This document shows positions 12,931 to 14,183 of a stretch of DNA of 64,000 nt, one piece after another. The notes under the pieces are model-generated. The model was given only the letters and a program-made list of their open reading frames with translations. It did no database searches and was not told the DNA's origin. Origin of the DNA: Bacteroidota bacterium (GTDB lineage: Bacteria > Bacteroidota > Bacteroidia > Chitinophagales > Saprospiraceae). The stretch lies in contig JAIUPL010000001.1 of assembly GCA_020160935.1 (NCBI GenBank), positions 248,001 to 312,000 on the forward strand, given 5' to 3'. Numbering within the stretch: the stretch's first letter is position 1; every line of letters begins with the position of its first letter. The translations under genes were made by a program, and so were the position numbers.

Positions 12931-12975
12931 AAAAAGGGGTGTTTTCAAGATTCTTGAAAACACCCCTTTTTTTGC
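12931..12975 (+). terminator. Strong intrinsic terminator of the tail module
   Basis: A perfect 19-bp stem (12931-12949 with 12953-12971) with a 3-nt loop is followed by T residues; the outer A/T bases of the stem are themselves the U-tract. Because the stem begins with an A-run it can terminate transcription from either strand. It lies 22 bp after the fibre stop codon and closes the operon. Confidence 0.9.
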
Positions 12976-13131: not shown

Positions 13132-13254
13132 AATCAGGAGTACTCTACGCATTGTGTCCTTCGTGAAACCTTGGTGCACGTTGTGGTAAAAAATTTTAAC
13201 CACCAAGTTCACAAAGGTTTCACAAAGGACACAACGCGTAGCATACACCTGATT
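13132..13254. repeat. 56-bp-arm inverted repeat, CTACGC/TTGTGTCC family
   Basis: Arms 13132-13187 and 13199-13254 are complementary over 56 bp with about ten mismatches and an 11-nt loop. The right arm, read on the minus strand, contains CTACGCGTTGTGTCC and AAACCTTTGTG. The same word family makes up the palindrome at 59443-59555 (3 differences in a 32-base stretch). It lies between the plus-strand fibre operon and the minus-strand RNA genes, so it is effectively a convergent intergenic hairpin. The flanking bases 12976-13131 show nothing recognisable. Confidence 0.85.
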
Positions 13255-13293
13255 CTGTAAGATATTCCCAGACACGGTTTCAAACATACGGGC

Positions 13294-13420
13294 AAAAAAA
13301 AACCCGGCGCTCGTTTGCGCCGGGTCGGTTTCCCGTATATAATCTCATGAAAAGTTTCAGAATCTGTGTGTCAACAATTACCGCTTTCTCGAATATCACC
13401 GCCGTTTTCTTTTATTGACA
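13294..13420 (-). ncRNA. Candidate small RNA, copy A
   Basis: A self-contained minus-strand transcription unit. A Bacteroidota -7 box (CACTTTTG, 13424-13431) and -33 TTTG (13451-13454) are 19 bp apart and predict a start near 13420. A terminator with an 8-bp GC stem (13303-13310 / 13317-13324), extended by one A-T pair, and nine U residues ends it near 13294. The 5' end (TGTCAATAA) can pair with TTGTTGACA about 40 nt downstream, with one G-U pair. The block between that helix and the terminator (GATTCTGAAACTTTTCATGA and beyond) is nearly identical to copy B. No open frame of note lies in the transcript. It may belong to a known Bacteroidota RNA family such as Flavo-1; I could not check. Confidence 0.7.
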
Positions 13421-13423
13421 GTA

Positions 13424-13454
13424 CAAAAGTGCAAACATTTCTACCATATGCAAA
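13424..13454 (-). promoter_or_regulatory. Promoter of small RNA copy A
   Basis: On the minus strand, TTTG (13451-13454), 19 bp, then CACTTTTG (13424-13431). It matches the Bacteroidota TTTG / TAnnTTTG consensus except for the first base of the -7 box, and is conserved in position and sequence in copy B although the spacer has diverged. Confidence 0.7.
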
Positions 13455-13702
13455 GAACACAAAACTGAATTTGTTGATTTGTTAGTCCCTGTATATAGCC
13501 CAATCAAATAGCATGTTTTTTTAAAATATGATCAAAAACACCCGTATTTGCGTAAATTCAAGCCTTATACATATACGCAGACCTATCCATTTGTTGATTT
13601 TTTTAATATAAAAAATCTTTTATTTTTTTCATATTTTTTTTCAAAAGTTGAATTTCCGCTGATTATGGAGGACAAATCGAACCTCCACGCTCAAAAAAGG
13701 GC

Positions 13703-13829
13703 AAAAAAAAACCCGGCGCTCGTTTGCGCCGGGTCGGTTTCCCGTATATAATCTCATGAAAAGTTTCGGAATCTGTGTATCAAAGTTTTCCGCTTTCTCT
13801 TGCTGCACCGCCGTTTGCTTTCTTTGATG
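13703..13829 (-). ncRNA. Candidate small RNA, copy B
   Basis: The same architecture as copy A, exactly 409 bp further right: -7 box CACTTTTG at 13833-13840, -33 TTTG at 13860-13863, 19-bp spacing, and the identical terminator stem (13712-13719 / 13726-13733) with its U-tract. The 5' helix is ATCAAAG with CTTTGAT, different in sequence from copy A's helix yet paired at the same place, so substitutions are compensatory. The segment from CACAGATTC to the terminator is conserved with a single change, while the 5' half varies. This pattern is what a duplicated structured RNA would show. Confidence 0.7.
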
Positions 13830-13832
13830 ATA

Positions 13833-13863
13833 CAAAAGTGCAGCACATGATTCCACTGCCAAA
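13833..13863 (-). promoter_or_regulatory. Promoter of small RNA copy B
   Basis: On the minus strand, TTTG (13860-13863), a 19-bp spacer and CACTTTTG (13833-13840), identical in layout to the copy A promoter. The 19-bp spacer sequences of the two copies differ almost throughout, so conservation is confined to the boxes. Confidence 0.7.
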
Positions 13864-14183
13864 GAACAAAAAAAGAAATTTGTTGAGAGATATGAATCAA
13901 GAAAAATTTAAAATTTGATTCAAAAACACGACAAAAACAGGGCATTTGCAGGCAAAATAGACCGCTTATGTGTGTCAACCGGTTCAATTTGTTGATTTTT
14001 TTATTTGTTTTTTATTCAAATTTTTCATCATTTATCTGAAAAAAAATTTTGTACCAGCCTTTTTTCCAAAAAATGCACTGCCGCGCCACAGGGAATATTC
14101 AACCTACTTACAGGGCATACAGCATTTTAAAAGAGCAGGATACCCGGATTCGTGTATTTTTCCGCCAAACAAATTTGAATTCA

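Follow-up and report, generated by a model that had tools for sequence, protein, structure and literature searches.

A multicopy family of predicted small RNAs in Saprospiraceae with an invariant core complementary to a start-codon-like sequence

Two nearly identical units lie side by side on the minus strand of the genome of a Saprospiraceae bacterium, and the question they raise is what they encode. A first-pass annotation of the window (the whole stretch of DNA analysed, 64,000 nucleotides, in whose positions coordinates are given below) had read them, from the letters alone, as a tandem pair of small structured RNA genes 409 bp apart. Comparison of the repeat confirms two units of 144 nt each, at 13290–13433 and 13699–13842, which are 88% identical with a start-to-start distance of 409. 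Their parts were also found where that annotation placed them: a promoter of the form TTTG-N19-CACTTTTG matches letter for letter in both units (13454–13424 and 13863–13833), the same intrinsic terminator sequence is found in copies A and B, and the arms of the 5' helix, TGTCAATAA/TTGTTGACA in copy A and ATCAAAG/CTTTGAT in copy B, are present as described. Both units are real, but the pair is two of three, since the genome carries a further copy beside recQ, 14 kb before the window (contig C43, 233785–233928). The features of the two units are as follows.

13294–13421, minus strand: sRNA copy A, predicted transcript of ~125 nt with its 5' end near 13420 and its end at the T-run (repeat, nhmmer, covariance-model match of 141.9 bits)
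13703–13830, minus strand: sRNA copy B, predicted 5' end near 13829 (repeat, nhmmer, covariance-model match of 145.9 bits)
13424–13431, minus strand: copy A −7 box, CACTTTTG (CAC[T/C]TTTG in 82 of 101 copies)
13451–13454, minus strand: copy A −33 TTTG, 19 nt from the −7 box (TTTG at 17–20 nt in 50 of 101 copies)
13470–13477, minus strand: copy A upstream element, TCAACAAA (69 of 101 copies have CAACAAA upstream, 63 of them at the same distance)
13833–13840, minus strand: copy B −7 box, CACTTTTG (sequence and motif counts over 101 copies)
13860–13863, minus strand: copy B −33 TTTG (sequence and motif counts over 101 copies)
13879–13886, minus strand: copy B upstream element, TCAACAAA (sequence and motif counts)
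13412–13420, minus strand: copy A 5' helix, left arm, TGTCAATAA (sequence, covariation)
13369–13377, minus strand: copy A 5' helix, right arm, TTGTTGACA (sequence, covariation)
13822–13828, minus strand: copy B 5' helix, left arm, ATCAAAG (sequence, covariation)
13779–13785, minus strand: copy B 5' helix, right arm, CTTTGAT (sequence, covariation)
13341–13352, minus strand: copy A invariant core, TTTCATGAGATT, proposed seed (invariant in 92 alignment rows)
13750–13761, minus strand: copy B invariant core, TTTCATGAGATT, proposed seed (invariant in 92 alignment rows)
13294–13325, minus strand: copy A intrinsic terminator, stem ACCCGGCGC/GCGCCGGGT, loop AAACGA, T-run (99.7% of cells paired over 92 copies)
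13703–13734, minus strand: copy B intrinsic terminator, identical to that of copy A (sequence, covariation)

The combination of CAACAAA with the promoter occurs in this genome only at two sRNA copies. To judge from sequence, each unit appears to have a promoter of the Bacteroidota type, the layout of a stand-alone gene and an intrinsic terminator with no conserved ORF, as looked for in a base-pairing sRNA. BLASTN detected homologues in 36 of the 37 genomes sampled within the genus (this one included), with 1–5 matches in each of the 36, and in none of 23 genomes of other genera; the only genus genome with no match (G010) has a completeness of 82%. Iterated nhmmer searches of the window and sixty fetched loci gave 110 matches, 101 of them near full length. 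In one genome (G005, locus L051, 8388–8942) four units stand in tandem ~130 nt apart, of which nhmmer matches only the first nearly in full; the three extra units match in their 3' part only, although for two of these model R1 aligns a loosely fitting 5' part as well.

Both window copies fold better than dinucleotide shuffles (z −2.95 for A and −3.53 for B; for either copy a single one of 200 shuffles did as well). The unconstrained minimum-energy fold of copy B omits the 5' helix (−35.0 kcal/mol, against −32.2 with the helix enforced), so that support for this helix is comparative. Covariation of the named two-helix structure was counted on alignment A2, which holds 92 of the 101 near-full-length copies (eight were left out as degenerate and one because a contig end truncates it), and was compared with 500 shuffles and with the structure slid along the alignment; relatedness among copies is not removed by the shuffles and is kept in the slid controls. 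The score was 0.441, as opposed to 0.175 in shuffles (0 of 500 as high) and at most 0.105 for slid structures. Across the two helices 97.2% of cells are paired, and 216 cells carry double changes, compared with 63.8 in shuffles. Double changes affect 10 of 17 pairs, a number that 9 of 500 shuffles also reach: four of seven in the 5' helix, whose outer pair is G-C in 49 copies and A-U in 35, and six of ten in the terminator stem. The compensatory change first noticed between two 5' helices thus extends over 92 copies, and the search for homologues that had been suggested as a check yielded related copies in which both helices covary beyond the shuffled and slid controls. We regard 13294–13421 and 13703–13830 as sRNA genes with little remaining doubt.

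The first-pass statement that no protein gene explains this stretch agrees with our analysis, in that three ORFs of 67–77 aa do not look conserved as proteins. Two were rejected as genes since stops fall inside 61 of 84 and 28 of 42 tblastn matches from the loci carrying copies; the third was rejected with stops in 4 of 18, most matches shown being short pieces of the shared terminator. Small protein genes on the opposite strand, starting at ATGAAAAGT in the complement of the core, would be another explanation, and ATGAAAAGT does open a 23-aa frame in both window copies. The frame and its stops vary among copies with no conserved peptide, and changes in the pairing are compensatory, which makes this reading extremely improbable. 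The Rfam scan proposed for the locus was run and gave no match at gathering score anywhere in the window, nor did a tRNA search of the window find any. At low threshold, six loci gave 13 Rfam matches at E ≤ 1, all below gathering score and none recognised as a Bacteroidota family; these low-threshold matches were taken as chance, those at one locus (L172) being to miRNA models and mostly on an unrelated palindrome. The units are small, structured and stand-alone like 6S RNA and other Rfam RNAs, but differ from these in having no match at gathering score; the 6S covariance model of Rfam in particular gave no such match.

It had been claimed that the 3' half is almost identical between copies while the 5' half varies, and this holds, stably across species, among 15 chosen copies from five related genomes: 3' halves are 98.1–99.3% identical in every comparison, and for type A 5' halves the identity is 88.0% from one genome to another, compared with 65.9% to the B/C type within a genome. 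Since the A type resembles itself across genomes more than it resembles the other type at home, the paralogue types seem to be older than these species.

When 616 ORFs around the copies were clustered, the largest cluster was RecQ-like, from 17 loci in 16 genomes, always tail-to-tail with the copy at 7–278 bp (RecQ domains were checked on one member). The window copies do adjoin a tail module, as originally described, but this neighbourhood is incidental: in another genome (G016) four copies stand between recQ and an M14 peptidase gene with no tail module. In the present genome (G000) and in G028, a prophage carrying tail genes sits inside the sRNA array, in opposite orientations and, judged by the flanking copies, apparently in different gaps. 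The tail module is therefore an intruder and no functional partner, and that such a small target was hit twice suggests that the insertions favour the sRNA locus. The prophage, which in G028 adds an AAA ATPase, an HTH repressor and an rve-like transposase below the Pfam cut-off, is probably Mu-like, a label based on gene content. It extends over window positions 1 to ~13043 and from ~234128 of contig C43 in G000, and over ~37545–73486 of contig C233 in G028; its transposase ORF has 100 aa in G000 and 701 in G028. A near-perfect palindrome (13132–13254) separates the prophage end from the copy A terminator; its 61-nt arms are 84% complementary, and it gives low-scoring miRNA matches in Rfam. 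A perfect 20-bp inverted repeat with A- and T-runs, perhaps a two-way terminator, lies just past the 1059-aa tail ORF (12931–12971).

Tandem multicopy units with a prophage and a separate palindrome close by invite the view that they are mobile or repetitive DNA of the REP or MITE kind, with no function of their own. We consider this very unlikely: copies keep the same locus between species, orthologous types persist, and the compensatory helix changes point to selection on the RNA. The core pattern was not found in the viral contigs searched, on which ground a phage origin of the sRNAs was also rejected.

More telling than the 5' helix of these RNAs is the invariant segment before the terminator. 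It is the most conserved part of the sRNA (UUUCAUGAGAUU), and within it TTTCATGAGATT is invariant in all 92 rows of A2. An exact core pattern retrieved 58 stretches from the GTDB species collection, all titled MAG, of which 57 carry the name of a Bacteroidota lineage, in most cases Saprospiraceae; the remaining one, titled Thermoanaerobaculia (L116), is probably this genus misnamed. The core followed by a terminator (TTTCATGAGATTAT, 15–45 nt, six T) was found in 92 of 284 genomes of the family, in 32 of 100 genera, when the reversed-pattern control was found in 1 of 284; outside this genus it was present in 63 of 254 genomes. A looser form of this pattern occurs in 12 of 14 genomes of one other genus (control 0), although a few of its hits lack a hairpin and may be chance. 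In a sample of the phylum, the pattern was found in 3 of 392 genomes, two of these from this family, and the control in one. The full covariance model, in contrast to the core, is confined to the genus, so that across genera only core and terminator are claimed: among 248 genomes of the order (13 candidates per genome scored, among the matches listed) it matched in three, all of this genus, 1 of 125 genera, and on 30 loci of other genera chosen by the core its best score was only 33.9 bits (E 0.0014). A 23-nt core pattern with up to three mismatches occurs in 25 of 398 family genomes, only three of them outside the genus; on reading these sequences we took one (G574) as real and two as chance.

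In the other genera the core lies at most 400 nt downstream of an ORF whose end resembles a T9SS sorting domain in 20 of 30 loci, assessed by eye. Over 35 loci, 28 upstream ORFs were found and 25 are homologous to each other; two were confirmed to carry DUF7619 and Por_Secre_tail. At one locus of another genus (L291) the core is accompanied by a promoter resembling that of the copies described here. In genus g45 (L243, L244, L247, L249, L251–L253, L258–L260) there is a second conserved setting, in which the core is often flanked by a divergent FdhD-NarQ gene on one side and, downstream, by an SdiA-regulated-like gene (the domains of each were confirmed on a single member), and at two loci of other genera (L292, L266) repeated GAGATT..ATTCGTT and ATTAGGTCGTCTTA-like motifs stand upstream of the core.

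Such a distribution could mean that the units are cis-acting 3'-end elements, specialised terminators that serve neighbours (recQ, for example, or the T9SS-type gene) and have no function in trans, as the tail-to-tail RecQ-like genes at 17 loci examined and the position of the core at those 20 of 30 loci outside the genus would allow. We find this improbable, because copies in this genus have their own conserved promoter, upstream element and covarying 5' helix, copies away from recQ are conserved as well, and termination does not need a core outside the hairpin. Moreover, none of 100 copies has a five-A run between core and hairpin, so there is no T-run for the other strand.

Most likely the RNAs are start-codon-blocking sRNAs. 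The complement of the core reads AAUCUC-AUG-AAA and resembles a translation start. Searched as DNA in 41 genomes of this genus, the complement AATCTCATGAAA was counted 166 times, at least once per genome, and its reversed control 12 times, a difference due mostly to the sRNAs themselves. Of these sites 150 were listed; 94 were set aside as known copies (four, in G965, C50 and C236, only presumed to be so) and 56 were fetched, at least eight of which are further sRNA copies (E < 0.01). Fifteen of the 56 coincide with starts of ORFs of at least 70 aa, where ~17 would be expected by chance in 41 genomes; there is hence no overall excess of perfect start-codon sites. What stands out is where they fall: ten of the 15, and beside them a 65-aa ORF cut by a contig end (L402), belong to two distantly related families of secreted proteins, T1 and T2, with the site in six and five genomes, respectively (11 in total). 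An HYR domain is above cut-off in a T2 member, and a T1 member has a sub-threshold HYR-like match only; most T1 and T2 ORFs run up to the edge of the fetched sequence. A T9SS sorting domain is present in a further one of the 15 (L396).

Four T2 lineages, 54–67% identical in protein sequence, share the site while their −66 to −7 regions are hardly alignable (z −0.5 to 2.9, ungapped identity 0.30–0.37); among the five T2 genes is one pair at 98% identity. T1 says little, since its upstream and coding sequences are conserved around the site as well (z 4.2–15.7). A rough Poisson estimate for the site in four of 41 orthologues of one family is 3e-8, or ~3e-5 corrected for 1000 families, assuming independence and with families that were found by searching for the site, orthologues lacking it being uncounted. 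Predicted pairing energies are −16.0 to −20.7 kcal/mol, values equalled at 0–3 of 617 starts in the genome of the window.

The genome of the window itself has no perfect 12-mer site outside its three sRNAs. Near matches to ATAATCTCATGAAAAGT number 17 outside the sRNAs, few of them at ORF starts, and the best candidate is CTCATGAAAAGT at the start of a 372-aa ORF (L155), whose function we presume by eye; pairing there (−18.3 kcal/mol) is stronger than at all 617 background starts. At the 617 starts examined, ATAATCTC occurs 6 times against 4.9 ± 3.1, which is no enrichment, and the 24-nt core pairs with them no better than its shuffles do. A 15-nt core does better on two of the three measures used (equalled by none of 60 shuffles; 0.2 on the third), marginally so against partial shuffles (0.0125–0.0375), and not clearly so against starts with shuffled upstream sequence (19 against 13.7 ± 4.2). 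The loop of copy A paired with start regions no better than shuffles did (0.17–0.23).

These observations led us to a model whereby the units would be transcribed as trans-acting regulatory RNAs of ~125 nt in which the core UUUCAUGAGAUU is the base-pairing seed, annealing to AAUCUC-AUG-AAA; transcription, use of the seed, targets and the sign of repression are all inferred. Pairing would block the ribosome at the start codon, with neither Hfq nor an RRM protein of the RbpB type, and the main conserved targets would be mRNAs that encode secreted proteins of the HYR type or T9SS cargo. The 5' helix-loop, with its stable difference between paralogues, would tune stability, partner or extra pairing. 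Start-codon base-pairing as such we judge to have slightly the better of even chances; that HYR/T9SS-type proteins are the main targets may be so, at a little under even chances.

The strongest rival to start-codon pairing holds that the core is a protein-binding site and that the RNAs titrate or load an RNA-binding protein, copy number setting the dose and the variable 5' halves being minor. A single invariant motif in several copies per genome, predicted to be half unpaired (mean 0.52 over 95 copies), fits a decoy, and in other genera the same core precedes terminators that follow a T9SS-type gene. Such moderate accessibility may, for a seed, call for a protein or local opening. Protein titration leaves unexplained both the start-codon complements of T2 in hardly alignable surroundings and the long-lived 5' paralogue types, and two known candidate protein families, Hfq and RRM_1, gave no match in this 98% complete genome (the RRM_1 search was positive in Bacteroides as a control). 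We therefore consider it unlikely, roughly a one-in-four matter in our estimation, and retain start-codon pairing as the preferred reading.

Among known systems, FopS/GibS of Bacteroides thetaiotaomicron is described as a set of multicopy sRNA paralogues with sigma-ABfr promoters, an intrinsic terminator and one shared seed (PMC11697453). According to the same account, FopS members include intergenic and 3'UTR-derived genes, carry the seed in a single-stranded 5' stretch, pair near the start codons of outer-surface genes, target SusC-type mRNAs, work with RbpB and have been deposited in Rfam (PMC11697453). The window sRNAs are likewise multicopy sRNAs of Bacteroidota with a Bacteroidota-type promoter, an intrinsic terminator and one shared core as putative seed, proposed to aim at start codons of secreted or surface proteins. 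Unlike FopS as so described, they have their core immediately ahead of the terminator and downstream of a 5' helix that covaries; their proposed targets are HYR/T9SS-type secreted proteins rather than SusC-type; and the genome gave no RRM_1 match, with the Bacteroides control positive. Rfam gave no FopS match at gathering score, in a copy that may not include FopS. By this anatomy, with no Rfam match and no RRM protein found, and relative to FopS as that account presents it, the window sRNAs are not classed as members of FopS.

The nearest precedent found for sRNA control of secreted proteins in Bacteroidota is Rfp18 of Flavobacterium psychrophilum, which its report describes as a conserved sRNA with links to proteases that are secreted and to an adhesin predicted to be so; a single pairing region, in a third stem-loop, serves these predicted targets, and deletion lowers two target mRNAs (PMC9723704). 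The window sRNAs are similarly proposed to act on secreted proteins, a likeness taken from the description of Rfp18; unlike in Rfp18, the proposed pairing core stands before the terminator and the proposed effect is repression. In the open-licence PMC literature there was, among the matches listed, no paper on sRNAs of the Saprospiraceae, and the experimental Bacteroidota sRNA work met here concerns Bacteroides and Flavobacterium.

On a wider scale we tentatively propose, as a possibility less likely than not, a Saprospiraceae-wide RNA superfamily in which one invariant anti-start-codon module of core and terminator is joined to changing 5' domains and controls large T9SS/HYR-type surface proteins without Hfq, either in stand-alone multicopy genes or at the 3' end of a T9SS-cargo locus. 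If this holds, it would suggest how a seed and its terminator can be housed either in 3' ends or in stand-alone genes. If the model is true, the Saprospiraceae, a large environmental family, would have a conserved sRNA system of their own, built on a 12-nt seed whose predicted targets lie at specified start codons, connected with type IX secretion and working in a genome with no detected Hfq or RRM protein.
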